Positions 1 through 16,951 of a stretch of DNA of 21,663 nt are shown here, piece after piece; positions within the stretch are counted from its first letter, which is position 1; the number at the start of each line of letters is the position of its first letter. The stretch is from IMG/VR virus record IMGVR_UViG_3300000117_000324, positions 1 through 21,663 of that record; one strand, given 5' to 3'. A program made the translations under genes and the position numbers. The DNA comes from a virus. Under the pieces are notes generated by a model that did no database searches, was not told the origin of the DNA, and saw nothing but the letters and a program-made list of their open reading frames with translations.

Positions 1-162
1 CACCTTCGCGCGCCATTTGGCGATTCCTTCTTCACTCAAGACGCTGAGAACGGTTGTTATAGAAGGATATAGATTTGTTCCTGAACGATAATGCCTCTTT
101 CCGTTTTTTTCTTCTGTAAACAAATCATCGTAACCAAGATCGATCTTTTGGTGTTCAAACAT
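1..162 (-). CDS. RecB-like PD-(D/E)XK exonuclease, N-terminal fragment
   Basis: Only the first 53 or so codons are in the window; the gene runs off the left edge. The visible peptide begins MFEHQKIDLGYDDLF, continues with a stretch containing YPSITTVLS, and then EEGIAKWRAR. A 'YPS[IV]TTVL ... W+' segment near the N terminus is what I recall from the RecB-family exonucleases of T4-like marine phages. The catalytic D, E and K residues would lie beyond the edge, so the family call rests on this N-terminal pattern alone. The ATG overlaps the TAA of the preceding gene by one base (TAATG), which supports the start and suggests coupled translation. The likely role is phage DNA processing or recombination, or host DNA degradation. 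Confidence 0.6.
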   Translation of the reverse strand, partial: MFEHQKIDLGYDDLFTEEKNGKRHYRSGTNLYPSITTVLSVLSEEGIAKWRAKV

Positions 163-932
163 TATAATGACAAAGTGCCTTTTCGCAATTGAGCTTCATA
201 TGCTCTTCTCTGCGCTCTATTCAGACCAGCAAGCTGTTCTTTTGACAACTCAACTATTTTTTGATTCTTTATTATCTTGCCTCTTTTTTTCTCTTCTTTC
301 AAGTCATAGGTAACGATTTCCATATTATCACGTTTTTGTATTTTAATACCATCGTGATTATGATGTAGAACAAATTTAGTGTCTGGTTGTTTTTGTTCAG
401 CTTCTTTAAAGATACCGTCCCAAACAGGTCGCCAATTTTCTATAAGTCTAAAATTGTTTATGCTACCTCGGTCGCTACTAAGATAAAGATCTGTGACGGA
501 TCTCATATTGAAATCAAATAAAGTATCGAAACCAAACATATGGATCACATCAGCTTTTTTCTTAAAGGTAGTATAATGTACCGCCATGTGTCCACAATTA
601 AAGTTTGTTGCGTTTTGAGCGTATTTTGGAACATGCGTATAAAACTCTCGAACATTAGGTGCGTACTTTAAATAAAAGCCAGATTGTCTAGGGTCTTGCA
701 TCCAAACTTGAGGACGAGTTCCAAGTATCCATGGATACATATCCAGATTCAGAGAACCTTCCGTTAGAGCGGCCATCATTTTAAAATCAACCATAACAGT
801 AGCATAAACGTCTTTTGCCAGCATCTCAAAAGGAGGCATATTACAAATTATGTTTTTGCCTGCTCTCTGACGAAATTTGTAGCACGCCGCAAGATCACCG
901 TTACCAATTACATTCCAAACATTATTGGTCAT
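162..932 (-). CDS. Sialyltransferase-like (GT29/GT42-type) protein
   Basis: A 256-aa soluble protein without signal peptide or membrane segment. It opens with a Rossmann-like motif, NVIGNGDLAACYKF, then IICNMPP and VMVDFKMM. A second conserved-looking part contains GHMAVHYTTFKKKADVIHMFGFD. A 'GNG.L' loop near the N terminus and a late '(L/F)GFD' strand resemble the GT42/GT29/DUF115 group of sialyltransferase-like proteins that sit in glycan loci. The C terminus is basic and ends in a short LNRAQRRAYEAQ tail. It is the last gene of the glycan block and overlaps its predecessor by 11 bases. The family is inferred from the pattern; donor and acceptor are unknown. Confidence 0.5.
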   Translation of the reverse strand: MTNNVWNVIGNGDLAACYKFRQRAGKNIICNMPPFEMLAKDVYATVMVDFKMMAALTEGSLNLDMYPWILGTRPQVWMQDPRQSGFYLKYAPNVREFYTHVPKYAQNATNFNCGHMAVHYTTFKKKADVIHMFGFDTLFDFNMRSVTDLYLSSDRGSINNFRLIENWRPVWDGIFKEAEQKQPDTKFVLHHNHDGIKIQKRDNMEIVTYDLKEEKKRGKIIKNQKIVELSKEQLAGLNRAQRRAYEAQLRKGTLSL

Positions 933-1587
933 TGTATATTTTTTTCCTTATTATATTGTTACCTTTCTCTCCGGTCCAATGCATGATTCTTTTTTTATTA
1001 CTGTCGGTATTATCGTTCTCAACATCGATACGTAACCAATTATACTTGTGTGGTAACTGACAGATATGAGAGATCTGATTGATCGGATTCGCCATCATAA
1101 AATGTAAAACTTCTTGGTCTCCTTGGGCTGGTTTTTTTCGACAAGCGTCTATCCAAGGGGCTAATATTCTTGGTTTATCTATAATGGCCATAACACCAGA
1201 GTTATACCATTTTTCTCCTGTGCGTTTTGTCCACGGCCTATCTTCACACATACCTAATTTGTCTGGCTCGCAATGATCCCAAATATCTTCAACGTTGTCT
1301 AGAACTTCGCAATCAGTGTCTAACCAGCAAAGTTTTTGAGCAGATACAAGGCTTAATGTTTTAGGTTTAAGAAACCAACCGTTGACCCTTTGACGAGGGA
1401 TATCAATTATGTCGTCAAATTCACTTATTTTAAATATCCACTCGCGCGTTTCATTCGTCACACCAAAGTCTGCGAAAACAATCGGAACTGTTTTATTGTG
1501 TTTTATAAAATTTTTTAAAAACCATTCTAGTTGCCATTCAGTTTTATCGTCACAACCAGTAACAAAAACCTTATCGTAGTATTTCAT
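922..1587 (-). CDS. GT8-like glycosyltransferase
   Basis: A 221-aa GT-A-type protein. The open frame extends upstream to 1737, but I start it at the internal ATG at 1587. That places MKYYDKVFVTGCDD at the N terminus as the first beta strand, puts a purine-rich GGGG just upstream, and reduces the overlap with the previous gene to 17 bases. The metal-binding DxD is DTD (residues 90-92) in CWLDTDCEV. YNSGVMAI (about 128-135), GDQEVLHFMM (156-165) and a late MHWTGEKG histidine segment follow, in the usual order for family GT8. It should transfer a sugar from a nucleotide donor; substrates cannot be read. It is one of three DxD enzymes of this type in the block. Confidence 0.75.
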   Translation of the reverse strand: MKYYDKVFVTGCDDKTEWQLEWFLKNFIKHNKTVPIVFADFGVTNETREWIFKISEFDDIIDIPRQRVNGWFLKPKTLSLVSAQKLCWLDTDCEVLDNVEDIWDHCEPDKLGMCEDRPWTKRTGEKWYNSGVMAIIDKPRILAPWIDACRKKPAQGDQEVLHFMMANPINQISHICQLPHKYNWLRIDVENDNTDSNKKRIMHWTGEKGNNIIRKKIYNDQ

Positions 1588-2218
1588 AACCAACCCCATC
1601 GTGCCAATTGTGTTTTGCCAGACAACCTTCTGTTTTCTGTATTGTTGTAAACGAATCTTTTGCTTCAACAGGCCAAGGGTAGTATTCTTGCAACCAAGGG
1701 AATCTATCAAGGTGTAGAAAAACATCTGTTGGGCCACCGTCTATTTTGGCTCTAGCGATTAATTCTTTTGCACCTTGAGGCTTTAGACGATAAGCGTGTG
1801 CGCCTGGAAAGTATCGTTTAGAAACAAGAGAATTAACACCCAGAGAAGTCGGCGTGTTAAACTTACCATAACTAGGTTTTCCTATCGATATTGCTTTATC
1901 GTAGTTGATAAATTCGGGTAGGGTTCCTGTGCAAACAGCATCATGCTCAAATATTTGAAACTCTTCTTTAAGCTCAATGCATTTTTTCCATAGTGAAAAG
2001 TGAGAAAGAAAAGCAGAGACACAAGATTCAAGATAAGAATATTTTTCCTCAAAACCAGAGACTGGTATAGATTCTATCTCCAGTATTGCCAGAGGGTTTT
2101 CTTTTGGAGTTATAGCGTTAAATTTACTTACTTTAAAATCAGGCATTGATAAAATGCATCTATCAGCAGCCTGTTCTGATAACGTGTTGCCTCTAATTGT
2201 AATTACAAATGATTTCAT
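1571..2218 (-). CDS. GT25-family glycosyltransferase (first of three)
   Basis: A 215-aa protein of the LPS glycosyltransferase GT25 type. The N terminus MKSFVITIRGN, the helix SAFLSHFSLWKKCI and the following FEHDAV (EHD at 91-93, in place of the usual E-D/DxD) are the family pattern; a late PGAHAYRLKPQGAKELI is the usual 'G..aY.l...GAk.L' segment. GT25 enzymes mostly add galactose or glucose to lipooligosaccharide. It starts in an ATGA overlap with the next GT25 gene upstream, which it resembles in plan, so the two look like an old tandem duplication. Acceptor unknown. Confidence 0.8.
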   Translation of the reverse strand: MKSFVITIRGNTLSEQAADRCILSMPDFKVSKFNAITPKENPLAILEIESIPVSGFEEKYSYLESCVSAFLSHFSLWKKCIELKEEFQIFEHDAVCTGTLPEFINYDKAISIGKPSYGKFNTPTSLGVNSLVSKRYFPGAHAYRLKPQGAKELIARAKIDGGPTDVFLHLDRFPWLQEYYPWPVEAKDSFTTIQKTEGCLAKHNWHDGVGYEILR

Positions 2219-2913
2219 ATTGTAGTCGTCGAAACGAGCCCTTGTACTTTCGTATAGTAGTTTTTAGTTTGGCCTAATATTCCAGGTAGTAATTGTTTAC
2301 ACATTATCGCGTCGTTCGGCCAAATGCCGTACTGATTGACAAGTTCAAGTAGTTTTTTAGCACCTGTCTGTTTTATATAGTAAGCAGAATTACCCGCTAA
2401 TCCTTGAGGCACATAGTGCAAATCAATGGTAGGAGGAGGAGCAATTGTAAACTCGCTCTGTGTGACAAGCTTATGGTACTCTTGTGCTTTTCGAGTCGCG
2501 CCTCTTGGGTCATTAATACCAATGATTTGGTACTTTGAGTTTTCAAGGTGATCACATCGAACTTTTTGTATGAACTCTGCGTCGTGTTCAAGGATAAGAA
2601 AATCGCTCGAGGTTTCTATACATTTTTTCCAAAGAAGGTAGTGAGAAAAGAAACAAGCGATTCGATTTTCTATCTTGCCTGTTTTATATGCTGAAAGCTG
2701 CAGCCCAGAATTAAAATCTGTTCTCTGTCCTGTAATCGGATAAGTGTATTGTAGGTTGTATTGTTTTTGTAACTCTTCGATTTGATTGGGTGTAACTGCA
2801 GTGAATTTTTCAATTTCTATATCATTAGAAACCCTTTCATTACTCAGTAAACAGTCACGTAAACCCTTTTCGGAAATTCTGTTTCCTTCAAGGACAATAA
2901 TATATGCTTTCAT
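2215..2913 (-). CDS. GT25-family glycosyltransferase (second of three)
   Basis: A 232-aa paralogue of its downstream neighbour. Shared features are MKAYIIVLEGNRISEKG at the N terminus, the helix IACFFSHYLLWKKCIE, ILEHDAEF (EHD at 109-111) and the C-terminal AGNSAYYIKQTGAKKLLEL. No membrane segment. It follows the HAD phosphatase with no gap and overlaps the next gene by ATGA, so it is translated in one run with the sugar-activation genes upstream. It probably adds one residue of the glycan that the block builds; linkage and sugar are unknown. Confidence 0.8.
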   Translation of the reverse strand: MKAYIIVLEGNRISEKGLRDCLLSNERVSNDIEIEKFTAVTPNQIEELQKQYNLQYTYPITGQRTDFNSGLQLSAYKTGKIENRIACFFSHYLLWKKCIETSSDFLILEHDAEFIQKVRCDHLENSKYQIIGINDPRGATRKAQEYHKLVTQSEFTIAPPPTIDLHYVPQGLAGNSAYYIKQTGAKKLLELVNQYGIWPNDAIMCKQLLPGILGQTKNYYTKVQGLVSTTTI

Positions 2914-3195
2914 TTAGAATATCCAATTTGCCTTATCGTCTACCCACACGTCATAGTGCGGCTTGTTCATCCACAACTCAGTGTATCGGCAACCCCAATC
3001 GCTGAGTTGTTTTTCAGTTAATTCTTTCCAGTCTTTACCAGAAACTGCACCACGAGCGGTCCAGTAAATAATCTCATGGCCTTCGTCATAGAGCGCATTA
3101 ATTTTTTCAACGTGTTTTCTTATTGCCCAAGATTGATGATAATTACTGTTCTCAGTCAAACAGATAGTTTTGTCTATGTCGACAATGTATCTCAT
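2914..3195 (-). CDS. Small HAD-superfamily sugar phosphatase
   Basis: A 93-aa minimal HAD hydrolase. Motif I is VDIDKT (nucleophile D6, acid/base D8), motif II is YWTARG (T46), and motif III/IV is supplied by K78 and the D86-D87 pair in VWVDDKA. It lacks any cap domain and is about half the size of the GmhB heptose bisphosphate phosphatases. It resembles the short 'capsule biosynthesis phosphatase' and polynucleotide-kinase 3'-phosphatase types. Its position after kinase and cupin genes, joined by ATGA overlaps, suggests that it dephosphorylates a sugar phosphate in the same pathway. The GmhB-like role is a guess from context. Confidence 0.75.
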   Translation of the reverse strand: MRYIVDIDKTICLTENSNYHQSWAIRKHVEKINALYDEGHEIIYWTARGAVSGKDWKELTEKQLSDWGCRYTELWMNKPHYDVWVDDKANWIF

Positions 3196-3551
3196 TTTTG
3201 GCTTGATCCTTTTTGTACGCGATAGTTATCTTCTACTGAATCGGGTGTTGACACCTCGATAATAGTTCCTTCTTCGAGGCAATATAATTGATGAGGCATC
3301 ATTGGTTCATTACGCCATACATCTCCGATATTTAGTATTCTTTCGATAACAGAAGCGTCTTGAGTATCGATCAATTTCAGTATAAATTTCCCTGACAGAA
3401 CGTACCAAGTTTCATCTTTCTCTTTATGTAGGTGCATAGAAAAAGATTTACCTGCTCTAAAGTTCATTAGTTTACCGCAATACAAATCGTTTGTCACCCA
3501 GATTAATTCAGAGCCCCATGCCTTTTCGACTACACCTTCTAACCTTGTCAT
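3192..3551 (-). CDS. Cupin, phosphomannose-isomerase type II-like
   Basis: A 119-aa single cupin domain. It starts LEGVVEKAWGSELIW, the usual entry to the mannose-6-phosphate isomerase type II cupins. Metal ligands are visible as H40 and H42 in MHLHKEKDETWYVLSGK, E47, and H87 in MMPHQLY. Proteins like this are often the C-terminal half of ManC/ManA-type enzymes or stand alone in glycan loci, where they isomerise or bind a sugar phosphate. It overlaps both neighbours by ATGA, between the kinase and the phosphatase, so it probably acts on the same phosphorylated sugar. An isomerase role is likely but not proven. Confidence 0.75.
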   Translation of the reverse strand: MTRLEGVVEKAWGSELIWVTNDLYCGKLMNFRAGKSFSMHLHKEKDETWYVLSGKFILKLIDTQDASVIERILNIGDVWRNEPMMPHQLYCLEEGTIIEVSTPDSVEDNYRVQKGSSQK

Positions 3552-4300
3552 ATTTCCTCCAGTTTTGGAGCATAGACTCCTAAATGTTGTACCGTAATCG
3601 CAGCTGCCCTCATTGCAAATTCTATTGCTGTCGATTTATTATTTGTTTGTAGATAATTAACAATGTAGGCTGCAAAAAATGTGTCGCCTGCACCGCAAAC
3701 ATCAACCATTTCTATTTGAGGAGGATTCCATTCTCCTTCTCCTGACACTATCTTACCACCGCCACCAGTTACAATTAACTCGTTCGGAGAAGGGTGATCG
3801 CTAATTCTTCGATCCCACTCATCGTTATTTATTTTTGTTATAATTCCTTCGAATTGACAAAGGTCTGGTTTTTTGGTGTCGATAAACATTGGTCCTGAAT
3901 ATTTAAGACGAAGTTCTCTTATAACTTCATAAGAGATATACCCTTTGTTGTAATCAGAGATAACAATGGCGTCAGCTTTCCAATCATCAATTTCTTTCGG
4001 ATCAAACGGAGACCAACCGCCGAGCGGAGTGTCAACTCTTAAAAGTTGATGCTGTCGAGAAAAATATCGAATTTTCTCTTCAACATATTTGGTATGAATT
4101 TCTACACGCGCCCCAAGGTTCGTAAAATTTTGAGCAACGTTTGCCGCCATCCCTGAACGACGCAGGTCTTCTCCATTCCAATCTAAAACGGGTACAGGAG
4201 CTTCAGGGCTAATTCTAGAAACAACACCAGATCTATAGGTGTCCCAACATGTTTCTCCGATTAATATAACTTTCAATGGTGTTTGTTGTTGCTTCATCAT
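3548..4300 (-). CDS. PfkB-family sugar kinase, HldE N-domain-like
   Basis: A 250-aa ribokinase/PfkB fold kinase. VSRISPEAPVPVLDW (about residues 27-41) is the hallmark of the heptose-7-phosphate kinase domain of HldE/RfaE. GMAANVAQN follows, then RQHQLLRVD (82-90), ISDYNKGYI (115-122) and the anion hole with catalytic base VCGAGDTFFAAY (GAGD 203-206). It is clearly shorter than the roughly 310-residue HldE kinase domain; the missing part is mainly the segment after LGARVEIHT. The start is at 4300 (or the second Met at 4297), because the first beta strand LKVILIGE lies directly behind it. The gene therefore overlaps the end of the nucleotidyltransferase gene by 68 bases in another frame. Likely function: phosphorylation of a heptose or similar sugar phosphate. 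Confidence 0.85.
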   Translation of the reverse strand: MMKQQQTPLKVILIGETCWDTYRSGVVSRISPEAPVPVLDWNGEDLRRSGMAANVAQNFTNLGARVEIHTKYVEEKIRYFSRQHQLLRVDTPLGGWSPFDPKEIDDWKADAIVISDYNKGYISYEVIRELRLKYSGPMFIDTKKPDLCQFEGIITKINNDEWDRRISDHPSPNELIVTGGGGKIVSGEGEWNPPQIEMVDVCGAGDTFFAAYIVNYLQTNNKSTAIEFAMRAAAITVQHLGVYAPKLEEI

Positions 4301-4703
4301 TTACTCTTTCAAAAAAATCGATATCAATCAGATTTTCACCAACAATTTGTTTTCCTCTCCAATCAGAACCAATGACTCTTACATCTGCTCGCGACATAAG
4401 CCATATGAGTTCTTCGTCACTGTTAAATGACCAAACCTCGTTAATGTCAATTATACGAGACAAAATCTTAGCTCTAACTGCCAAAGGATTAACTGGGCGA
4501 TCACTACCTTTATTCTGCCGTATTCTTTCATCGCTGTCAAGTGCACAAATTACATATGATTTTGGATCTAAAGATTTAGCGTACATGAAAAGATCAATGT
4601 GTCCCGTATGAAGCATATCAAAGGCACCGTTGATCAACACTTTATGTAGATGATTTAATTTTAGTTCATCTACGTTCTTTGGGTAGAGAGAAGTTGGCTT
4701 CAC
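4233..4703 (-). CDS. Sugar-phosphate nucleotidyltransferase, HldE C-domain-like
   Basis: A 156-aa cytidylyltransferase-like protein. It shows LINGAFDMLHTGHIDLF with the HxGH nucleotide-binding motif (H32-H35), ALDSDERIRQNKG, RPVNPLAVRAKILS and, late in the chain, VIGSDWRGKQIVGEN and ATTNTIESYI (the counterpart of the STT segment of the family). This is the layout of the ADP-heptose synthase domain of HldE (RfaE2); glycerol-phosphate cytidylyltransferase is the other possibility. In HldE the order is kinase then nucleotidyltransferase. Here they are separate genes in the reverse order, with a 68-base out-of-frame overlap. It starts in an ATGA overlap with the methyltransferase gene. Confidence 0.85.
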   Translation of the reverse strand: MKPTSLYPKNVDELKLNHLHKVLINGAFDMLHTGHIDLFMYAKSLDPKSYVICALDSDERIRQNKGSDRPVNPLAVRAKILSRIIDINEVWSFNSDEELIWLMSRADVRVIGSDWRGKQIVGENLIDIDFFERVNDEATTNTIESYINRRNMLGHL

Positions 4704-5203
4704 ACTTTAATTGCCGTTGCATAAAATGAATGATTAAGATCGAATCCATCTGTCACAATAACAGAACGCCACTTGCCACGAGATTGAAGATAGTCTCGTA
4801 TAATATATGGCTCTAAAACATTAATATGTTTACGATTGTGCCATGGTTTCCAATACTCTTGGTGATAACTTGGAAGATAGAGAAATAATATTCCACCGAC
4901 TCGAAGTTGTGAATACCAATAATCAAGCACACCAACCCAGTCTGATAAATGCTCGAGGCAATGTGATGAGAAAATGTAATCCAAGTCTTTTTCTGGAAGA
5001 TTCATTGCATGAAAATCATCTTCAAAATCTAGATCAACAGGTATTGCTCCTGGAAACGCCCATTCTGGTTTCATGCAACCAACATCAACGCCTTTTCCTT
5101 TACAGAGTTTAGAAGCAAAGGGAAATGCATATTGTGAAGCAAATCCTTCTGTTTGTAGTTTTGGATATATCTTACCACCAAATTGTATTGTATGTTCACT
5201 CAT
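4700..5203 (-). CDS. SAM-dependent methyltransferase (Methyltransf_11 type)
   Basis: A 167-aa class I methyltransferase. Motif I is GKGVDVGCMKPEWAF, the acidic end of beta 2 is IPVDLDFEDDF, and the motif II region is LDYIFSSHCLEHLSDW. LRVGGILFLYLPSYH follows as the typical 'L+pGG.l...P' strand. These features place it with Methyltransf_11 enzymes of glycan loci. The chain is short and has no obvious C-terminal substrate domain. ATGA overlaps on both sides tie it to the GT9 enzyme and the nucleotidyltransferase, so a sugar or glycan is the likely methyl acceptor. Confidence 0.75.
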   Translation of the reverse strand: MSEHTIQFGGKIYPKLQTEGFASQYAFPFASKLCKGKGVDVGCMKPEWAFPGAIPVDLDFEDDFHAMNLPEKDLDYIFSSHCLEHLSDWVGVLDYWYSQLRVGGILFLYLPSYHQEYWKPWHNRKHINVLEPYIIRDYLQSRGKWRSVIVTDGFDLNHSFYATAIKV

Positions 5204-5988
5204 AATAATTTCTCACAAGCATTATAAACCATGTCAACTGTCATCCATTCATTTGCGTCAGCGCAATGTTGACAGTCATAAGTGTTACCGCAGGGCGACT
5301 CTGGATGATCATATTCTATATTGATATGTCCAGGATATTCACCAATTGTTGTGTTTGCTATTCCTCCTTGTAGAACAACACAGGGGATCTCCATACCCCC
5401 AAGGGCATGGATAAACAATCCGATATACCCGACACCAAACTTGGCCTTTCGAAGCATGGCAAAGGAAATTCGAACGTCTTCACAAACAATATTTATCGCT
5501 CCCTCTAATATCGGTTCTTTGTATATTCCCTTTGGCATGACTCGAACACAAGGGATATCGAGTCTATTTGCCAACTCTTGATACTTTGCAAACCCCCAGT
5601 TTTTATTCAGACTGAAAAAAGTCTTTTTATAATCAGGATTGATCGCCGCGAACGCTTCGGGTACGTTGTGTTCTTCTAAAAGTTTATCTGCAATCTCTAG
5701 CTCTTCTTTTGTAAAACGAATTCGAAAAGGTTTGATTTTATATGGTCTCCAGACCATCTTTTTGCCGAGGATAGTTTGCCTCTCTTCAGCGCACATATAC
5801 TGCACTCGGTAATCTGTAGTGTCTGGAGTCGTGTCTCGAGTGTTAAGTGTTTTACCAGCGTCAGAAAGAAACTCCACATTCTTAAAGAAAGGTGAGTTTC
5901 CGCTACCGACAGGACGAATATGTTGTCCAGTTTCTAGATATATTTTCTCAGCTTCGCCAAGAAAAAACATGTCATCTCCCATTCCCAT
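5200..5988 (-). CDS. GT9-like (heptosyltransferase-type) glycosyltransferase
   Basis: A 262-aa GT-B-like protein. The N-terminal MGMGDDMFFLGEAEKIYLETGQ matches the 'G(M/I)GD.+....A..l' loop of GT9 and related proteins. The C-terminal half has NWGFAKYQELANRL, then VRISFAMLRKAKFGVGYIGLFIHALGG and IPCVVLQGG, the usual 'D.g..Hla.a.g.P.v.l.G' donor-binding stretch in modified form. Several cysteines cluster in the C-terminal part (SPCGNTYDCQHC), which is unusual for GT9 and may bind a metal. GT9 members are mostly ADP-heptose:LPS heptosyltransferases, in keeping with the HldE-like genes directly downstream. Confidence 0.65.
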   Translation of the reverse strand: MGMGDDMFFLGEAEKIYLETGQHIRPVGSGNSPFFKNVEFLSDAGKTLNTRDTTPDTTDYRVQYMCAEERQTILGKKMVWRPYKIKPFRIRFTKEELEIADKLLEEHNVPEAFAAINPDYKKTFFSLNKNWGFAKYQELANRLDIPCVRVMPKGIYKEPILEGAINIVCEDVRISFAMLRKAKFGVGYIGLFIHALGGMEIPCVVLQGGIANTTIGEYPGHINIEYDHPESPCGNTYDCQHCADANEWMTVDMVYNACEKLL

Positions 5989-6639
5989 TTAACTGCTGAT
6001 TCGTTTGGTTGGTCCTGGAGGTTTTTCTTGAATATCACCCATGTCTTCTTCGGTCGCGTTACGAGCAATAACAGCGTGTCCTGCTCCACCGCCTGTCAGT
6101 CTTTCGACAACAGACCATTCTGGGTTGTGTTGACAAAACTCTTCAATAACTTTAAGCAAAGCCCAATCGTTTTGTTTGATGTCGTGAAACGCAATATATT
6201 TTTTGACAGAATGCGCGTGAACTCTCAGCTCTTGTTTTAGATGGGCTGGCTTATGTAGACTGTCGATGTGAAGCATATCAACTTCACTCACAGTTGATTT
6301 ATCCAGAGAACTCACACCATGAGCCTTCATTGTCTTATTTGTTCTTGCACAATAGTCTAACAGTAAAGGTTTAATATACTGTTCAAATTTTTTAAGGTTA
6401 ATATCAATTGCCTCACCGTGGCAAACACTATCTTGAAGCATCATCGCCATAAACGAGCTCCCTTGGAACACGCCTATTTCTTTTACCGATTCGCATCTTG
6501 CTGCATACCGCATAAGAGAGTTTAATCGTTTAAACGAATTTTGCATATGAGGTTCAATACCCTTGGTGAGAAGTTTCAATTGCATCTCTTGCGCTTCTTC
6601 GGCAGTGTCAACTAATCGATATTCGTCCCATGGTTTCAT
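5989..6639 (-). CDS. Class I SAM-dependent methyltransferase (Methyltransf_24-like)
   Basis: A 216-aa protein. The open frame reaches back to 6735, but the ATG at 6639 is preferred: it has AGGAG seven bases upstream and begins 11 bases after the preceding stop, whereas the longer version would overlap that gene by 86 bases. Motif I is VKEIGVFQGSSFMAM, then GEAIDINLKKFEQY, VDMLHIDSLHKPAHLKQELRVHA and KKYIAFHDIKQNDW. The 'D.lHiDg.H.y......d' and 'ggyi.fHD' segments are those of the CmcI/TylF-like Methyltransf_24 group. These methylate small sugars or related metabolites. Substrate unknown. Confidence 0.7.
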   Translation of the reverse strand: MKPWDEYRLVDTAEEAQEMQLKLLTKGIEPHMQNSFKRLNSLMRYAARCESVKEIGVFQGSSFMAMMLQDSVCHGEAIDINLKKFEQYIKPLLLDYCARTNKTMKAHGVSSLDKSTVSEVDMLHIDSLHKPAHLKQELRVHAHSVKKYIAFHDIKQNDWALLKVIEEFCQHNPEWSVVERLTGGGAGHAVIARNATEEDMGDIQEKPPGPTKRISS

Positions 6640-6649
6640 CTCTTTTCTC

Positions 6650-7444
6650 CTATATGTATGTGTTAAGTTTTGCACCATGTTTTTTAAAACGGTATACATG
6701 GTGAGAAGATTTTCCTTGAATGTTTCCAAAAGCATTATAAATGTCTAACCGATTCCACGGAACGTAAAGAGAAGCCAAGTGCAACATTCCAGAATCGATG
6801 CCAACGTGCCCTTCTGAATGTGACATGCAAAACCCAACGTGTTCTAGAGACGTCTGCAGGTATTTACTTCGAGCTTCTCCGCCAACGACAACTAGATCAC
6901 ACCCTTTCATTCTATATTCGTTTTCTACCTTATTACGGAGAATTGGCGACAATTGTCGACTTTTATCTGCAGAGTCCCATTGAACAGTTACATACTTTTG
7001 CGGTAGTGCAATATGATTAGAACAATCAACGGGGTTGAGTCCTGGAGATTCTGTGAGGTATTCGTCTGCGTCTATAAGATCCATTCCAGTAACGGGCCCA
7101 AGAGGTTGAAGTTCGACCCAATCTTTATAATAATAAGTCTGTACGTCTTTTAATCCTTTAGATTTTAAATATTCTATCCAATCAGGTTCAGACAGACCGC
7201 AAACTGGATGAGCAGTAATTTTTACTCGGTAACTCGTCATTCTACTTAGTTGAGCCCATGTATCTTTTTTCGCCTGTTTACCATACTTGTCTGATGTAAG
7301 GTGAAGAACAACTTCGCATTGGTGCGCGTCAGCATATTTCTGTGCAAATAAGACCGCGTGTATTCTATCACCTACTCCAGGAGTAGTATAAGGAACACCC
7401 TTCCTCCACATAGACATAGAACGTACTGCTATATTTTTTACCAT
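6650..7444 (-). CDS. GT9-like GT-B glycosyltransferase
   Basis: A 264-aa protein. PGVGDRIHAVLFAQKYADAH near the N terminus is the 'G.GD.i.a...a..' donor-loop pattern of GT9-like proteins, and HVGIDSGMLHLASLY near the C terminus is their 'D.g..Hla' motif. YVTVQWDSADKSRQL in the middle could be the entry to the second Rossmann domain. It overlaps the preceding methyltransferase gene by seven bases. It is more diverged from heptosyltransferases than the 5200-5988 protein, so other GT-B families remain possible. It presumably adds one sugar to the glycan made by the block. Confidence 0.6.
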   Translation of the reverse strand: MVKNIAVRSMSMWRKGVPYTTPGVGDRIHAVLFAQKYADAHQCEVVLHLTSDKYGKQAKKDTWAQLSRMTSYRVKITAHPVCGLSEPDWIEYLKSKGLKDVQTYYYKDWVELQPLGPVTGMDLIDADEYLTESPGLNPVDCSNHIALPQKYVTVQWDSADKSRQLSPILRNKVENEYRMKGCDLVVVGGEARSKYLQTSLEHVGFCMSHSEGHVGIDSGMLHLASLYVPWNRLDIYNAFGNIQGKSSHHVYRFKKHGAKLNTYI

Positions 7445-8295
7445 TGGGCATGCTCCAATTCGATCTCATATCGAGTCGAGTTACAAGGTGAATCAAACTC
7501 GGTCGGATAAACCTCTTTCTCTTCAGACCATTCTACAAGATCGTTACGAACCCATGTAACTTCAAAGGTCTCCGCCACTGGAGGTTTACCTGGAATCTTA
7601 TAGAAACCGGACCAATTGTTTGCGTGTATATGGCAAGGAGTAAAGTGTTTTCGAAGTTTCAGTAGCGCGTTTTCGATAAGGTTTGTGGTAGAGGCTCGTG
7701 AAAAATAAGAAACAAACCAATGCATTTCAATGCAAAGCTGTGAAAATCCTACAAGAGTATCAGGATTAATTGCATTAAAAACATCCCACTCTGCCCCTTC
7801 ACAATCCATCTGCAAAAGCATATTATCTTCTTTGGTGTGACCGTTATCAGCAATCATCTTTGATAACGTATGAATTTCATTTGTATTTTTCGGGCCAATT
7901 CCAATTCGCTGTATTGTTCGATTAGGCGTTTTAAATCTAGACGCGTCAACAGTGTGATCATACATCCATATATGGTGGCCATATTTTTCGATCGATTCTT
8001 CGAATTTAACTGTTTTGCCAATGCCGATAGAATATGCAACGTTGCCGCCTTTTAGCAGATCTTCTATAAAAACATATCCACCATCATTCTGTTCGCCGAT
8101 TCGAACTTTTTGCATACCCTTTGGTTTTTTAGGCGATAACAACGACATTACATCATACATTCTATCTTGGTTGCTTAGAAAGTTAGCATATTGTAGAGGA
8201 GACTTCATTTTTTTCCAAATAGTAGAAGGATGATCAACCCTGAAGGTCTTTTGTTCCTTGTCTTTTTTATTCATTTGTTGGAATATTTCATTCAT
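7438..8295 (-). CDS. FkbM/METTL24-like methyltransferase
   Basis: A 285-aa protein. VRIGEQNDGGYVFIEDLL, AYSIGIGKTVKFEESI, IWMYDHTVD and LLQMDCEGAEWDVFNAI follow in the order known for FkbM-family and METTL24-like SAM methyltransferases. The 'DCEGAE' motif is the most diagnostic. FkbM-type enzymes O-methylate sugars and secondary metabolites and are common in glycan loci. It overlaps the radical SAM gene by eight bases and the next gene by seven. With the 4700-5203 and 5989-6639 proteins it makes three different methyltransferases within 4 kb. Confidence 0.75.
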   Translation of the reverse strand: MNEIFQQMNKKDKEQKTFRVDHPSTIWKKMKSPLQYANFLSNQDRMYDVMSLLSPKKPKGMQKVRIGEQNDGGYVFIEDLLKGGNVAYSIGIGKTVKFEESIEKYGHHIWMYDHTVDASRFKTPNRTIQRIGIGPKNTNEIHTLSKMIADNGHTKEDNMLLQMDCEGAEWDVFNAINPDTLVGFSQLCIEMHWFVSYFSRASTTNLIENALLKLRKHFTPCHIHANNWSGFYKIPGKPPVAETFEVTWVRNDLVEWSEEKEVYPTEFDSPCNSTRYEIELEHAQW

Positions 8296-9232
8296 CAGTT
8301 GTAGATCCTAGGGCGTTAATAAAGTCGAAAGATGGTTTACCAAATAACGTACCATCTACATTACATTTGTTGCAAGGTTTTTCTGTGCGGTTGCCTTTTT
8401 TTAACTTATTTCTTATCTTTGTCATTGGTTTGCCGAACCAGACATCACTTAGGCTTTGAGTAATTAAATTACCAACCACCTGTTCTCTATTCCAATCATT
8501 ACAACAGAGAATACAATCGCCGTTCCAATCAACAAACATCTTATAAAACGGATAATAACAAGGTTTATCTTTAACAGCTTCAATCGTCGAGTCGTCAATA
8601 CCCATCCAGTCGACAACGCCGCTTCGATTGTTTAACACTAGACCATGGTCTTCCATACCACCCCAGTGCACTCTATACTTATATTTCTCTTGAGGGATGC
8701 CTGCAAGGTCAAACAACTCGTCAAAATGTTCTACTTGTTCCATACCATCATATAGGTTCACATAGATGATTGACATGCCTGCGTCAAAGATTCTTCGAGC
8801 GTAGTGCTCATCTAGCTTGTCGCCATTGGTGTTACACTCAATGACATTATTTGGTCTATGCTTACGAAACACACTAATAATCTCTGGAAACCATGGGTTG
8901 AGAAGGTTCTCACCAAACCCACTAAAGGATATCTTACCTTCAAAAGAAGAACGTTCGAGCTCCTCTGCAATGATTGTAGCGCCTTTTACAGTGAGGTGAA
9001 GGTTTCTATTGTCATAGATTTCAGGGTCATGACGAGGACAGAACACGCATGTACGGTTGCAGAGCTCTGTTGTGTTGATCTCTATTGTAAGAATAGAATT
9101 GAGCGCGTTTCTTTCTTGGATCTTGTTCCAATGCTCAGTTTCCTGTTTTCTTCGATGTTCAATCATCTCCCACTGATCAACTGCGACCATTGGTATACGA
9201 TTATTACCTTCTATTCCAGGTATCTTAGCCAT
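8288..9232 (-). CDS. Radical SAM enzyme with SPASM domain
   Basis: A 314-aa radical SAM protein. The SAM-binding [4Fe-4S] motif CxxxCxxC is LCNRTCVFC (C58, C62, C65), followed by ISFSGFGENLLNPWF, a GGE-like SAM contact, and IECNTNGDKL. The C-terminal part carries six more cysteines (C225, C240, C243, C244, C287, C290) in the arrangement of a SPASM domain that holds an auxiliary cluster. SPASM enzymes act on peptides and, in glycan loci, on sugars (epimerisation, dehydration). The substrate is not evident. It abuts the GT25-like gene upstream and overlaps the FkbM-type methyltransferase, so glycan modification is the best guess. It would need two Fe-S clusters; compare the phage IscU at 20520-20918. 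Confidence 0.9.
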   Translation of the reverse strand: MAKIPGIEGNNRIPMVAVDQWEMIEHRRKQETEHWNKIQERNALNSILTIEINTTELCNRTCVFCPRHDPEIYDNRNLHLTVKGATIIAEELERSSFEGKISFSGFGENLLNPWFPEIISVFRKHRPNNVIECNTNGDKLDEHYARRIFDAGMSIIYVNLYDGMEQVEHFDELFDLAGIPQEKYKYRVHWGGMEDHGLVLNNRSGVVDWMGIDDSTIEAVKDKPCYYPFYKMFVDWNGDCILCCNDWNREQVVGNLITQSLSDVWFGKPMTKIRNKLKKGNRTEKPCNKCNVDGTLFGKPSFDFINALGSTTDE

Positions 9233-9952
9233 CTATAAACCCCAACTAGTCGTGACATATTGCGTATTGAAAATAACAGGACTGGGATTAATATACTCAA
9301 CCGTGCAATTTTTTGTGTTCAAAATAAAATCTGATTGATCCAGACCAACGGTTAATGCTGTCTCGAGCATCTTCTTTGCTCCAGCTGGTGTAATTGCATA
9401 TGCTGCAGTTCCAGGAACCATATAAGCATTTTCCCAATCGTTGGGTTTATTATACACTAAAGGATATGATTTATCATCCAAAAGATTATTGTATTTTTCT
9501 TTCATCGGTACAGGGTAGTTCCGAATACCTTTTTGTATTGGATATTTCTTATTAGTAAACGCGTCTCCCATGTTTAGTATAAGATAATCCTCAAACTCAT
9601 ATTCTTCTGCATCTGCAACGCAAATAATATCATGTTCAATGAAGCATTGAGTCTCGTTAGAATCGATTACCTTTTTCCAGAAATACAAATGGTTGTATAC
9701 GCACGCTGTTTTGGTTTTCCATATTTGATTGTTTTCACCATGCATCATCCACAATCGACCTTTTTTCGCAAACCTCGTAGTGAAATCGTTTCGTAATCGA
9801 GCGCCTTTTACCAGATCATCAAAGTCTGAACTAATAACGCCTTCGACAAGAGAAACATCCCATCCTTTGTATGACTGAAACGATTTTAAAGATTCCATTC
9901 CAATCTTTTTAGAATCTGGATTCGAAGGAGTATAGATAATTTGAGCTTTCAT
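9233..9952 (-). CDS. GT25-like glycosyltransferase (third of three)
   Basis: A 239-aa protein with the plan of the two GT25 proteins at 1571-2913 but more diverged. The helix ACVYNHLYFWKKVID corresponds to their 'SH..lWKkci', FIEHDIIC (EHD 106-108) to their 'EHDA', and VPGTAAYAITPAGAKKMLE to the 'G..aY.i...GAkkLl' segment. LILNMGDAF is also in the expected place after the EHD. It starts in an ATGA overlap with the GT8-like gene and is followed directly by the radical SAM gene. Sugar and acceptor unknown. Confidence 0.7.
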   Translation of the reverse strand: MKAQIIYTPSNPDSKKIGMESLKSFQSYKGWDVSLVEGVISSDFDDLVKGARLRNDFTTRFAKKGRLWMMHGENNQIWKTKTACVYNHLYFWKKVIDSNETQCFIEHDIICVADAEEYEFEDYLILNMGDAFTNKKYPIQKGIRNYPVPMKEKYNNLLDDKSYPLVYNKPNDWENAYMVPGTAAYAITPAGAKKMLETALTVGLDQSDFILNTKNCTVEYINPSPVIFNTQYVTTSWGL

Positions 9953-10734
9953 ATATGTTTCATCAATTCATTAAAGTTCTCGCCCCGATCAGGCAGTTTA
10001 TCTTTTAAGAAAAAATGTACAAAAGAACATTCTTTGATCTTTGTGTTGGCTGTGTATAAACCATTCCACTTCCAATGTAAGTCTTTCGTAGGCACCTTTG
10101 CATTGTAGATAAAATAATTGAGTAAAGTTTGATCGGTGCTCCATTTCCACGCACCTTGGCCGTCGACAAAATCAACAAACTCATTTTGCATTATCCAATC
10201 TTTTGGAGAAAGACCTTTCAGAAAAGGTTCGAATTGCGCGCTGTTAAGAAGAATCAATCCCATATTATAGAAAGGATATCCCATTTTTGATACTTCTCGA
10301 TATTTACGTCTTTTAGAAAGACCCTGATATTGCATCGCAGAATAATTAATAATCTTCGCAATGTATTGATCAGTGATAGGCATCGATGACTCGAGTACTG
10401 CGCCAAACGCGTGATCAGTACCAAAATCTTCGAAAATATTTTCAGCGTTTTCTCTAACGAATATATCTGCGTCGACAATAGCAATCTGATCGTAGTCTTT
10501 CAGATGACTAAACGCGTTTTCTTTTTCATATATGGGAAGAAACCCGCCATGTTTTTCATAAGACTCTTTACTACGATTTGTTGTAAAGACATTTGGTTTG
10601 ATTCGAAGAATTGGATCTTTTTGTACGATGTGATCGATGTTATGTTGAGAACAGTAAGCGGCTACAGAAGCAACACACCCATCATATAGTTTAGATTTTT
10701 TGCCGACGTATACTTGATATATCAATCTTCTCAT
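9949..10734 (-). CDS. DxD glycosyltransferase, GT8/GT34-like
   Basis: A 261-aa GT-A protein. The DxD motif is IAIVDADIFV (D88-D90), preceded by KENAFSHLKDYD and followed by YPFYNMGLILLN, the 'f.NaGl.l.n' segment of GT8/GT34-type enzymes. STDQTLLNYFIY and a late FVHFFLKDKL histidine complete the pattern. The ATG at 10734 lies in front of the first beta strand LIYQVYVG. No good ribosome-binding site is at the right distance: AAGGA is 12 bases upstream, inside a small overlapping gene, so translation may be coupled to that gene. Confidence 0.75.
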   Translation of the reverse strand: MRRLIYQVYVGKKSKLYDGCVASVAAYCSQHNIDHIVQKDPILRIKPNVFTTNRSKESYEKHGGFLPIYEKENAFSHLKDYDQIAIVDADIFVRENAENIFEDFGTDHAFGAVLESSMPITDQYIAKIINYSAMQYQGLSKRRKYREVSKMGYPFYNMGLILLNSAQFEPFLKGLSPKDWIMQNEFVDFVDGQGAWKWSTDQTLLNYFIYNAKVPTKDLHWKWNGLYTANTKIKECSFVHFFLKDKLPDRGENFNELMKHI

Positions 10735-10849
10735 AATCTAATTTTTTCCTTGCTGGAGATTTTTCAAATTTAACTTTTTTTCGTTCAGCTCTGTATTTAT
10801 CGTTCCTTCTTTTCTTGTTTCCGGAATCGAATTTCGAATATTTTGCCAC
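10691..10849 (-). CDS. Small basic phage protein, GTG start
   Basis: A 52-aa, strongly basic peptide starting AKYSKFDSGNKKRRNDKYR after a GTG codon and ending SSIRRQKI. The GTG has AGGTAGGT seven bases upstream. It follows the stop of the preceding small gene by five bases and overlaps the start of the GT8-like gene by 44 bases in another frame. Short 'AKYSKFD..NKK' proteins are something I recall from T4-like marine phages, which favours a real gene. The charge suggests nucleic-acid or virion binding, but no function can be assigned. Confidence 0.5.
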   Translation of the reverse strand: MAKYSKFDSGNKKRRNDKYRAERKKVKFEKSPARKKLDYEKIDISSIRRQKI

Positions 10850-10854
10850 GTGAT

Positions 10855-10998
10855 TTACCTACCTTGACCTCTGTATTTTTTATAATTTGCTTTTTTCTTT
10901 TTGTTTAGAGAGGACGTGTTAAAGTGTCCTCTACCAATAGAAGTGCCTTTTGGTTTGTATTCAACTTTGTTATTACCTGAAGATAATGCCTTTGCCAT
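10855..10998 (-). CDS. Small basic conserved phage protein
   Basis: A 47-aa peptide beginning MAKALSSGNNKVEYKPKG and ending in a lysine-rich NKKKKANYKKYRGQGR tail. The start has AGGA seven bases upstream. The 'TSS(L/M)NK.KK...KKYRGQG' ending is a pattern I recall in small proteins of T4-like marine phages. It lies directly behind the lysozyme gene (12 bases) and ahead of the GTG-start gene. The function is unknown; a nucleic-acid or virion-associated role would fit the charge. Confidence 0.7.
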   Translation of the reverse strand: MAKALSSGNNKVEYKPKGTSIGRGHFNTSSLNKKKKANYKKYRGQGR

Positions 10999-11010
10999 TA
11001 ATAATTCCTT

Positions 11011-11457
11011 TTAAGCTTCTTCTAATCGAACCATCAGTCTTTCTGCGCGATTAGTTACTTGATTATACCACTTCGAATCGCGTCCTTCAATAGCTGCTGT
11101 TTTCCAATCACCGTTTTCAAGAGCGGTCAACATTTTCTTAAACTTAGAAAGTCTTGGTCGACCCATGTTAAACATCATATTGACAACAACCTGCTGTACT
11201 TCCTCTGGAAATTCGTCGAACGCTCCTCCAGGGAAAAGCTGGTGGCACTCAGCAACTGCTGTGTCAAGATCGCATTCAAAAGCCTCCCACACTCGAGTAG
11301 AACTGACAGCGGTGCCGACTTCTAATCCTGCTTCTGGATCATCGTCTGTAACAAGGTGGCCTACTCCAAAGGTAGGATATCCAAGGTGATCAAGATAAAT
11401 TTGGTATTCAACTCCCTCGTCTATCTTTAATGTCTCGAAAACTTCTTCTCTGTTCAT
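11011..11457 (-). CDS. T4-type lysozyme (endolysin), GH24
   Basis: A 148-aa glycoside hydrolase family 24 lysozyme that cleaves the MurNAc-GlcNAc bond of peptidoglycan. The start at 11457 (in-frame upstream codons reach 11493) is chosen for its ATGA overlap with the preceding gene and its match to the T4 e-protein N terminus. The catalytic triad reads E14 in KIDEG, D23 in IYLDHLGY and T29 in PTFGVGH, with exactly the spacing of T4 E11-D20-T26. VVVNMMFNMGRPRLSKFKKML and SKWYNQVTNRAERLM match the C-terminal lobe. There is no signal peptide, so it should need a holin to reach the wall. It sits oddly inside the glycan block, between a glycosyltransferase and two tiny basic proteins. Confidence 0.95.
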   Translation of the reverse strand: MNREEVFETLKIDEGVEYQIYLDHLGYPTFGVGHLVTDDDPEAGLEVGTAVSSTRVWEAFECDLDTAVAECHQLFPGGAFDEFPEEVQQVVVNMMFNMGRPRLSKFKKMLTALENGDWKTAAIEGRDSKWYNQVTNRAERLMVRLEEA

Positions 11458-12113
11458 TGTTCTTCCTTTAGTTGTTTTGCTACTTGTTTCCATTCTTCAG
11501 CGAATTCACAGTTTTCATATTCAGAAAACCATGGTCCACCGTCTGTATAATGAATAATGTTCGGTTTATCTATATCTGAGTAATACCCAGCCAAATAGTT
11601 CCATGTGTGGTTAAGAGAGCCAATATTATCAGCCCACCTCATTTGATGTAGGTAAGAAGGGTCGACAATATTAACTACATCTGGTGTCAGTTTCCAACAC
11701 GCTGAATTGTTATATAGCATGACTGAAGACCAGTTTTTCCTTGGATAGACGTGTTGCAACTTTCCATCCATTTTATACTTGCCTTTGGGTGTGTATTCAT
11801 GATGAACGCAACTAACATCACAAGATTCATCTATTGTTTCCATAATATCTAAAACATTAGTGTTACATAAAATATCACAATCAACAAAAAGAGAATATCC
11901 TTTATAGTCGCTGAGAAAAGGAACAAGGAATCGAGTCATTGTAAATTCGGTTGATGCTTTAAGATCGTGTTGTCGACGAAATATACCTTTGTCTATCAAC
12001 TCAGATCGCACAAGAGGGATAATTTCGACTTCTGTAGAATGATTCAATATCGATGCTCGTGCAACCTGATATGCTTCATCTTCTCTGGGATCGTAACCAA
12101 TAAAAACTTTCAT
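11454..12113 (-). CDS. DxD glycosyltransferase, GT8-like
   Basis: A 219-aa protein with N terminus MKVFIGYDPREDEAYQVARAS, the typical entry of GT8-like enzymes ('v.iGyD.re..a..v...Si'). FTMTRFLVPFL precedes the DxD motif SLFVDCDILC (D78-D80), and NWSSVMLYNN and a late IIHYTDGGPWF histidine segment follow. All elements of a nucleotide-sugar-dependent GT-A enzyme are present. It overlaps the sialyltransferase-like gene upstream and the lysozyme gene downstream by ATGA. Proteins of this subtype are common in phages and in cell-surface loci; the substrate is open. Confidence 0.8.
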   Translation of the reverse strand: MKVFIGYDPREDEAYQVARASILNHSTEVEIIPLVRSELIDKGIFRRQHDLKASTEFTMTRFLVPFLSDYKGYSLFVDCDILCNTNVLDIMETIDESCDVSCVHHEYTPKGKYKMDGKLQHVYPRKNWSSVMLYNNSACWKLTPDVVNIVDPSYLHQMRWADNIGSLNHTWNYLAGYYSDIDKPNIIHYTDGGPWFSEYENCEFAEEWKQVAKQLKEEQ

Positions 12114-12733
12114 TCGACAAATACTATTTTCGTGTTAAATTCTTTTTCAAAAAGAGGAAGCATTTTTTGTTCTACATCATATCTATGGTCGCCGTAATTT
12201 TTCCAATCCTTACCTCTTGTGACAGACCATCCAAACTTTCCACTACGCACATTGTCGTATCCGAGAAGATGAATCTTAGAGGGTTGAATATAGTGACAGG
12301 CATAGAGAATTGTATGTGTTCCAGAAGACATATGATTGTGTCCCAAAACGGGGTCAGAGTGAACCTGAGCTTCTTGCGAGTTTCTTGACCAGTCGTTTGT
12401 TCTCATGTCACGAAAAATTTGATTCCAATGATGACAGAGTTGCTGATTGCATTTAACTGTCTCACTATTGTATCGACTATCATAGTCTTCTTTTGGATTT
12501 CTTCGACTATCGATATAAACCCAACACTGAACATTTGGAATGTTTGATATTGTTTTATATTGAGCCGTTGACCCCCCAATAACATTGGTCTTAGAACCAT
12601 ATTGCTCTGGGTTTTCTTTAACATATTTGATTGAATTAGCTTTTTGTCTTATAACACAGTCAAACGAATCGATATAAGAACCATATTTTTTGTGCAATAA
12701 ACTAGGGCCATGACCAACTATTATAACTTCCAT
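12110..12733 (-). CDS. GT29-like sialyltransferase-type protein
   Basis: A 207-aa protein with motifs recalling eukaryote-type sialyltransferases (GT29). An L-motif-like stretch is IIVGHGPSL (residues 4-12) plus GSYIDSFDCVIRQKA. An S-motif-like stretch is MSSGTHTILYACHYI (about 135-149) leading to IHLLGYD (154-160). A VS-like DHRYDVEQ has H183 where the catalytic histidine would be. No membrane anchor or signal peptide. The GT29 label rests on these motifs and their order; general nucleotide-sugar binding is safer than sialic acid as donor. It follows phoH by one base and overlaps the GT8-like gene by ATGA, opening the glycan block. Confidence 0.6.
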   Translation of the reverse strand: MEVIIVGHGPSLLHKKYGSYIDSFDCVIRQKANSIKYVKENPEQYGSKTNVIGGSTAQYKTISNIPNVQCWVYIDSRRNPKEDYDSRYNSETVKCNQQLCHHWNQIFRDMRTNDWSRNSQEAQVHSDPVLGHNHMSSGTHTILYACHYIQPSKIHLLGYDNVRSGKFGWSVTRGKDWKNYGDHRYDVEQKMLPLFEKEFNTKIVFVE

Positions 12734-12734
12734 A

Positions 12735-13433
12735 TCATTTAATTCCCATCCATTCTTTGGTCATAATATAATCACGAACAAAATCAGATCGAACAATATC
12801 TTCCCAACCAAACTGGACATGGGTAAATGATTTCATATTATTAATGATACTAAGAAATTGATTCACCCCGCTTTTATCTTTCTCTTGTTTGAAGTCAGAC
12901 TGATAATAATCGCCACAGAATATAATTTTTGTCGCTTGTCCAACCCGAGTTATGACAGAGTCAAGTTCGTGAAAGTTTAAATTTTGCATTTCATCAACAA
13001 GTATAATACTGCTATCATAGGTCACTCCCCTTATGTAAGAGGTTGACTCAAAGTTTATGTAATTATTATGAACGAGTTTATCGTATGCTTTGGTGTCATT
13101 AAACAGTTCCGTTGCAGCTGCTCGATAAGGACCAGTATAAGCGTTGAGTTTTTCTTCAACACTTCCTGGAAGATATCCAATCTCTCTAGTTGGTACAACA
13201 GAGCGAATTATATGCAGGGTTTCATAAGGCGTCGATCTGTCCATCACTTCTTCGAGCGCGAGATAAATTCCTAAGAACGTTTTACCTGTACCAGCAGTGC
13301 CTGTGAGTGCGAGATGATCTCCATCTTTCCAGGCTTTCCAAGCGTCTTGTTGATGCGGTGTGATAGGTGATATGGTATCCATCTGATCGATCCGGATACG
13401 CATGTCGGTTTGCGATGAGATAATTTTGGTCAT
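12735..13433 (-). CDS. phoH: PhoH-family ATPase
   Basis: A 232-aa PhoH-like P-loop ATPase. The Walker A motif is GTAGTGKT (45-52) and Walker B is IILVDEMQN (143-151); TPHQQDAWKAW before the P-loop and VVPTREIGYLPGSVEEK after it are characteristic of the family. PhoH is widespread in marine phages and often used as a marker gene. Its role is uncertain; an RNA helicase or RNase-linked function is suggested for cellular homologues that carry extra domains, which are absent here. The ATG overlaps the preceding TGA (TGATG) and no ribosome-binding site is visible, so translation is probably coupled to the FmdB-like gene. Confidence 0.95.
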   Translation of the reverse strand: MTKIISSQTDMRIRIDQMDTISPITPHQQDAWKAWKDGDHLALTGTAGTGKTFLGIYLALEEVMDRSTPYETLHIIRSVVPTREIGYLPGSVEEKLNAYTGPYRAAATELFNDTKAYDKLVHNNYINFESTSYIRGVTYDSSIILVDEMQNLNFHELDSVITRVGQATKIIFCGDYYQSDFKQEKDKSGVNQFLSIINNMKSFTHVQFGWEDIVRSDFVRDYIMTKEWMGIK

Positions 13434-16922: not shown

Positions 16923-16951
16923 ATTATATATTATTTTTTAGACTTTACCAA
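16923..16951 (-). promoter_or_regulatory. Sigma70-like promoter candidate before the reductase
   Basis: Minus strand: TTGGTA (16951-16946), a 17-base spacer and TATAAT (16928-16923), with transcription expected to begin near 16916 and a leader of about 40 bases before the reductase ATG. It overlaps the end of the lipoprotein gene and lies at the only clear gap of more than 50 bases between genes. The spacing is ideal and the -10 box perfect, but AT-rich DNA gives such matches by chance. A T4 late box (TATAAATA) is not present here. Confidence 0.5.

Follow-up and report, generated by a model that had tools for sequence, protein, structure and literature searches.

A conserved block of glycan genes beside phoH in a marine T4-like phage, and the host surface as its possible target

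Lipopolysaccharide (LPS) gene clusters have been known in phages since P-SSM2, and a comparison published in 2010 left open whether they are functional or stuffer DNA (PMC3037559). Modification of host LPS or its O-chain has been proposed for cyanophages and pelagimyophages (PMC2984593, PMC7029224, PMC7824862). Here we describe a glycan block in the IMG/VR virus record IMGVR_UViG_3300000117_000324, the whole of which, 21,663 bases, was analysed and is called the window. The space between phoH and a PD-(D/E)XK exonuclease gene is taken up by eighteen glycan genes and one gene for a T4-type lysozyme, every one of them on the minus strand. The block probably builds a heptose-containing, methylated sugar chain; that it is a functional phage-encoded surface-glycan locus, with the host lipid A-core of lipooligosaccharide (LOS) or LPS as the most likely acceptor, we hold with slightly better than even confidence. 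New elements are the 19-gene arrangement, the selection acting on it, an architecture of fixed ends and a variable middle, and a glycosyltransferase family (g16) without a match in phage records. Large phage glycosyltransferase clusters are already known (P-SSM2 and S-SSM7, PMC3037559; pelagimyophages, PMC7029224; jumbo cyanophages, PMC7824862), and the size of the set is less unusual than an earlier reading, made from the sequence alone, had taken it to be.

That sequence-only reading had described a 12-kb glycan block on one strand with start/stop overlaps, which the present analysis bears out. The open reading frames (ORFs) lie where it had placed them, and 97.7% of the block is coding. Neighbouring genes overlap by 4-68 nt or sit at most 10 nt apart, with the exception of a 276-nt gap after the lysozyme gene. 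The genes are numbered g01 to g19 by position and are transcribed in the order g19, g18, the lysozyme gene g17, g16, g15 and so on to g01. The start of g02 was corrected to 1587 (not 1737) from codon frame and homologues, and that of g11 to 6639 (not 6735), later than in the longest ORF. The T4 late promoter TATAAATA was searched for and is not present, and one-mismatch matches occur at chance level, so the timing of expression of the block is not readable. The borders of the block are:

12735-13433, minus strand: phoH, upstream border (phrog_170, 3.4e-75)
1-159, minus strand: 5' end of the PD-(D/E)XK exonuclease gene, downstream border (matched by eye to the gene after g01 in the relatives L068 and L069, RHYRSGTNLYPSITTVLSVLSEEGIAKWRAKV; the L068 copy matches Pfam PDDEXK_1 at 3.7e-7)

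A search of related phages for the same block, which the sequence-only reading had suggested, found the genes together: the same 19 genes stand in the same order in two distinct relatives, L068 and L069, at 64-96% protein identity (L070 is L069 almost unchanged and is not counted separately). All 18 glycan genes are intact, with ratios of non-synonymous to synonymous substitution rates (dN/dS) of about 0.02-0.19 by the Nei-Gojobori method, with synonymous sites saturated or close to it in many of the genes. The corresponding ratio of proportions (pN/pS) has a median of 0.163 for the block, against 0.173 for the flanking genes plus lysozyme. The block is maintained by strong purifying selection, like ordinary phage genes, and this selection together with the conserved order implies that the gene set is not due to chance. 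For the window block, the result also answers the question of stuffer DNA. Functionless host LPS genes that merely fill the head were raised as an explanation of the cyanophage clusters, to which large cyanophage genomes owe most of their extra length (PMC3037559). Here such a role is contradicted by the intactness of 18 of 18 glycan genes and by dN/dS values no higher than about 0.19, which cannot be told apart from those of the flanking phage genes; the divergence of the recurring end genes of the locus also keeps pace with that of phoH (correlations 0.45-0.67). Since every gene is kept under selection, we find the stuffer explanation scarcely credible.

Ten of the genes had been proposed to encode glycosyltransferases: three GT25-like, three GT8-like with a DxD motif, two GT9-like and two sialyltransferase-like. 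About nine of them appear to be supported by profile comparisons, with unequal strength and in several cases through homologues alone:

1571-2218, minus strand: g03, GT25 glycosyltransferase, conserved end gene (PF01755, 2e-9)
2215-2913, minus strand: g04, GT25 glycosyltransferase, conserved end gene (PF01755, 1.5e-15)
9233-9952, minus strand: g15, GT25 glycosyltransferase (PF01755, 9e-7)
9949-10734, minus strand: g16, GT8-like glycosyltransferase, DAD motif, conserved end gene (PF01501, 1e-4, just under the cut-off)
922-1587, minus strand: g02, GT8-like glycosyltransferase, DTD motif, conserved end gene (via homologues)
11454-12113, minus strand: g18, GT8-like or nucleotide-diphospho-sugar transferase, DCD motif (phrog_28018, 2.3e-54)
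5200-5988, minus strand: g10, GT9-like (heptosyltransferase-like) protein (profile and relatives, no direct Pfam GT9 match)
6650-7444, minus strand: g12, GT9-like protein (homologues and profile, no direct Pfam GT9 match)
12110-12733, minus strand: g19, GT29 sialyltransferase-like protein, partial match (PF00777, 3.6e-5, residues 4-52)
162-932, minus strand: g01, conserved end gene of a GNGD...GFD family (weak MptE-like/DUF115 resemblance)

The predicted GT25 identity is firm, all three proteins passing the Pfam cut-off of 24 bits (38, 58 and 29 bits for g03, g04 and g15). The PHROG label '2OG oxygenase' of g03 and g04 was judged misleading, the matches being to the GT25 domain. The GT8-like trio also holds. 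Besides the DxD motif in each protein and the near-cut-off match of g16, a GT8 match is seen in 15 of 22 homologues of g02, whose profile matches glycogenin (1.8e-4), and the g18 homologue in L073 exceeds the GT8 cut-off; further g18 relatives are present in Mosig, S-SCSM2R and CcrColossus. For the GT9-like pair, homologues and profiles speak for the assignment: WaaC and WaaF rank first with the g10 profile (E 0.01-0.05; WaaC 0.01), g10 has relatives in Caulobacter giant phages, including a protein annotated as family 9, and 6 of 13 g12 homologues match GT9 (best 1.2e-4), with WaaC at the top of the PDB profile list (E 0.05). The AlphaFold model of g12 is modest (predicted local distance difference test, pLDDT, 59; predicted template modelling score, pTM, 0.60), and a PDB fold search with it gave no significant match, some top ranks being GT-B enzymes with low template modelling scores. 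The sialyltransferase-like pair is reduced to g19, which retains a marginal match (23.7 bits against a cut-off of 23.0) over 49 residues only; g01 loses the label, its matches being weak and MptE-like/DUF115. The g01 family is well conserved across 23 aligned, diverse phage homologues, PF01973 matching weakly in 5 of 24 members; a PDB search found no relative of g01, and its AlphaFold model, from three sequences, is poor (pLDDT 36).

The sugar-activation genes recognised earlier are present as a cassette of HldA-like, HldC-like, HAD and cupin proteins, a set incomplete for ADP-heptose:

2914-3195, minus strand: g05, small HAD phosphatase (phrog_1238, 5.7e-23; EcbF-BcbF, 9.7e-6)
3192-3551, minus strand: g06, cupin (Cupin_2, 1.7e-7; phrog_7851, 1e-38)
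3548-4300, minus strand: g07, HldA-like heptose-7-phosphate kinase, short form (TIGR02198, 6.3e-32, below the full-length cut-off)
4233-4703, minus strand: g08, HldC-like heptose-1-phosphate adenylyltransferase (TIGR02199, 3.4e-21, below the cut-off; HxGH motif)

The g07 protein matches the heptose kinase of PDB entry 4e84 (2.7e-14) and carries the RISPEAPVPV and GAGD motifs, while being some 60 residues short of the TIGR02198 model length; g08 has many homologues in marine T4-like phages. As both score below the equivalog cut-offs, we infer the heptose substrate. The role of g05 would be GmhB-like, and g06 is possibly a sugar-phosphate or nucleotide-sugar isomerase; the PHROG labels 'phosphoheptose isomerase' (g05) and 'cysteine dioxygenase' (g06) were judged misleading, the matches being to HAD and cupin domains. 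All four genes are homologous to the cassette T4-GC 304-307 of P-SSM2 and S-SSM7 (E 6e-19 to 4e-50; g05 to T4-GC 306 and g06 to T4-GC 307 in P-SSM2), and the cassette is co-located in these phages and in a marine single-cell virus. A single-sequence scan of viral contigs with g07 returned no match, although profile searches find g07 in cyanophages. The relatives L025 and L033 encode a comparable nucleotidyltransferase as a fusion with a cupin, which links functions of the g08 and g06 types. No gene for GmhA or HldD was recognised in the window or in the 4.8 kb that follow in L068; the host, or DNA elsewhere in the genome, would have to provide both. The 68-nt overlap of g08 and g07 (4233-4300) is retained in relatives, and the P-SSM2 counterparts overlap by 41 nt. 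Beside the glycan genes of L025 (17980-20391) lie a DAHP-synthase-family (KdsA-like) gene and a cytidylyltransferase (KdsB-like) gene, with a uroporphyrinogen-decarboxylase-like protein encoded between them.

Further modification of the chain would fall to four genes, in which S-adenosylmethionine is abbreviated as SAM:

4700-5203, minus strand: g09, SAM-dependent methyltransferase (PF13489, above the cut-off)
5989-6639, minus strand: g11, methyltransferase-like protein (PF13578, 3e-4, below the cut-off)
7438-8295, minus strand: g13, FkbM-like methyltransferase (PF05050 and PF13383, about 3e-4, below the cut-off)
8288-9232, minus strand: g14, radical SAM/SPASM enzyme (PF04055, 2.5e-10; PF13186, 4e-13)

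Three methyltransferases and a radical SAM enzyme had been listed before: g14 is clear, as is g09, while g11 and g13 stay below their cut-offs. Profile searches of the kind proposed in the sequence-only reading placed most of the genes in glycosyltransferase or sugar families. With these placements, the conserved order and purifying selection on all genes, the multi-step methylated oligosaccharide pathway it had suggested is well supported. The g14 gene is the most conserved of the block (94-95% identity), with relatives encoded in 308 viral stretches, and enzymes of the radical SAM/SPASM type often serve to modify peptides. The product could accordingly be a small molecule or a signal, such as a heptose metabolite or a radical SAM-modified peptide, in place of a surface glycan, and a survey of jumbo phages puts forward a secondary-metabolite cluster for one cyanophage (PMC7824862). 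A set of about nine glycosyltransferases does not sit easily with a small product, though, and no precursor peptide family was seen; we regard this alternative as improbable. Besides the radical SAM enzyme, the window encodes a NifU/IscU-like iron-sulfur scaffold (20520-20996; NifU_N, 1e-53). About seven radical SAM/SPASM-like ORFs stand in a row in a viral contig (L057, 3378-17262, and L058), close to a g18 homologue.

Window-gene profiles were run across about 240 loci. A recurrent order emerged in dozens of marine T4-like contigs: phoH, sometimes lysozyme, g16, variable genes, the GT25 pair, g02 and g01. The locus consists of recurring ends (g16 near phoH; the GT25 pair, g02 and g01 at the far end) and an exchangeable middle. 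Conservation of the ends is partly by construction in the 28 counted loci, which were chosen for having g16 and g02, include some close relatives and are not fully independent. Among loci found by g16 alone and with enough DNA, phoH, g21 or g22 lies upstream in 39 of 41, a GT25 gene lies downstream in 36 of 36, and g02 or g01 follows within about 10 kb in 22 of 36. The 167 middle ORFs of the 28 loci form 63 families, of which 27 are confined to one locus; the fraction that two loci share has a median of 0, and 191 of 378 locus pairs have no family in common. These families include GDP-mannose dehydratase, sugar dehydratases, epimerases, FkbM methyltransferases, sulfotransferases, an aminotransferase, a pyruvyltransferase and GT61. 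Middle content correlates with phoH divergence at a Mantel r of 0.25-0.44, against 0.45-0.67 for the end genes. In some phages, the phoH-to-exonuclease site is empty or shorter than 1 kb. A true serotype-like locus of marine T4-like phages, in which sugar cassettes are exchanged, the ends track phoH and related phages differ in the glycan that they make, possibly displayed as a virion surface type, is an interpretation we advance as doubtful.

The enzymes suggest the following course. From a host sugar phosphate, g07, g05 and g08, with the cupin g06, would make an ADP-heptose-like donor, the host supplying the absent GmhA and HldD steps. The GT9-like g10 and g12 and the GT25- and GT8-like enzymes would assemble an oligosaccharide in the cytoplasm, to which g09, g11 and g13 would add methyl groups, while g14 might carry out a radical modification. 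A base shared by all loci would be the work of the recurring g16, g03/g04, g02 and g01, and the exchangeable middle genes would add a variable portion. The acceptor would be the host lipid A-core on the cytoplasmic side of the inner membrane, and the altered cell surface might stop adsorption of other phages, perhaps of the phage's own progeny.

GT8, GT9, GT25 and GT29/42 are the usual families of the LOS/LPS core. None of the 19 block proteins has a strong transmembrane segment, which excludes a flippase or polymerase from the block, and no flippase, polymerase, ligase or other multi-span membrane protein was found in it. Families of the core type in a block without an exporter make a lipid A-core exported by the host the simplest acceptor, in line with the proposals published for cyanophages and pelagimyophages. 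If the phage instead glycosylated its own virion, on a tail fibre, capsid or decoration protein, with the variable middle giving virion surface types, no lipid-carrier or flippase gene would be needed either. This reading is the chief rival, since genes related to those of the block adjoin tail genes elsewhere: sialyl-like, g18-like and g10-like genes directly follow a tail protein gene in CcrColossus, and the heptose cassette of P-SSM2 is located among tail-fibre genes. In C48C1, a reduced block comes after three very large genes without assigned function. In the lineage of the window and most relatives, however, the block adjoins phoH, lysozyme and nucleotide-metabolism genes, it lies about 30 kb from the capsid gene gp23 in a 177-kb contig, its gene families are those of LOS/LPS synthesis, and the window holds no virion protein as a candidate acceptor; we consider a virion target possible but unlikely.

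Phage DNA, the other target named in the sequence-only reading beside the virion and the host envelope, is disfavoured. T4 glucosylates its own DNA, and some T4-like phages add longer sugars, a precedent for a block that protects DNA against restriction. No PF00303-type hydroxymethylase and no Tet/JBP (PF12851) match above the cut-off was found in 12 related records, including contigs of 151 and 177 kb, records that may be incomplete; heptose activation, GT9 and GT25 are not known as parts of DNA modification. Sugars on DNA are thus very improbable.

Several points weigh against a host-surface glycan all the same. The same glycosyltransferase families can act on proteins, and the position of related genes next to tail genes in other phages would fit virion glycosylation too. 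The ADP-heptose set of the 21.7-kb fragment is incomplete, the calls of g10, g12 and g19 are weak, and g01 has no assigned function. That the host has heptose-containing LPS is an assumption. Donor, acceptor, product and role of the block are all predictions from its genes.

A lysozyme gene, missing from the earlier description of the block, lies inside it:

11011-11493, minus strand: g17, T4-type lysozyme (endolysin) (PF00959, 8e-9; E11/D20/T26 of T4 lysozyme matched by eye)

Other lysis-type genes near the locus are a spanin-like pair at 16931-17398 and 17687-18112 (a lipoprotein-like protein and a coiled-coil membrane protein), and several relatives place lysis-type genes between g02 and g01. 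The gap between lysozyme and g16 (10735-11010, minus strand) contains two tiny basic ORFs of about 47 and 42 amino acids, and its DNA is kept in both relatives.

The phoH gene, the g21 transcriptional-regulator family and several PHROGs indicate a marine phage of the T4-like type, related to Kyanoviridae; gp23 is present in four large related contigs. A class II (B12-dependent) ribonucleotide reductase (14955-16874) is closest to those of phages of alphaproteobacteria (65% to HMO-2011); C48C1 and Mosig have class I. A Megablast search with the entire window found no match among phage records. Relatives of g16 are encoded in at least 530 viral stretches, and the family had no match in 50,697 phage records; the g01 family had one, C48C1 being the only named phage with a homologue (45%). 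Eight g16 matches in bacterial metagenome-assembled genomes gave no host: at least three contigs (L078, L079 and L080) carry phage flank genes, and phage contigs in bins are a more likely source than host loci. These three, binned as Sphingobacteriales, Flavobacteriaceae and Rhodobacteraceae, resemble T4-like phage contigs.

The layout of fixed ends and variable middle recurs in dozens of uncultured marine contigs, which suggests that a system of surface-glycan diversification is widespread, and g16, g02, g01 and the g07/g08 pair are concrete genes with which to ask whether the sugar target is the host or the virion.

Among known systems, bacterial O-antigen and LOS loci share with the window family the recurring ends and an exchangeable, strain-specific middle, and their glycosyltransferase, methyl, sulfo, pyruvyl and nucleotide-sugar genes are also seen in the related phage loci; the window locus differs from O-antigen loci in being phage-encoded and in having no flippase, polymerase or ligase in the block. 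The gp126-gp131 stretch of CcrColossus likewise unites sialyl-like, g18-like and g10-like genes beside lysis genes, but it has few genes, follows a tail gene, and was not seen to contain the heptose cassette or the radical SAM gene. The glycosyltransferase-rich host-recognition region of pelagimyophages (PMC7029224; Mosig EXVC030M) is also marine and T4-like, with GT8-type enzymes, rfaE and, in Mosig, a g18 homologue; its genes accompany tail fibres or stand in twos and threes and the reductase is class I, whereas the window has 18 glycan genes by phoH and a class II enzyme. The LPS clusters of the cyanophages P-SSM2, S-SSM7 and S-SM2 (PMC3037559, PMC7824862) are, like the window, large T4-like sets of glycosyltransferase and sugar-activation genes; that of P-SSM2 also lies near phoH and shares the homologous HldC-HldA-HAD-cupin cassette, and its phoH-to-exonuclease site is filled by two other genes. 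Unlike these clusters, the window has a g16 family found in no phage record and a g01 family found in one, and at the phoH site its whole set forms one continuous block that also comprises a radical SAM gene, three methyltransferase genes and a lysozyme gene.

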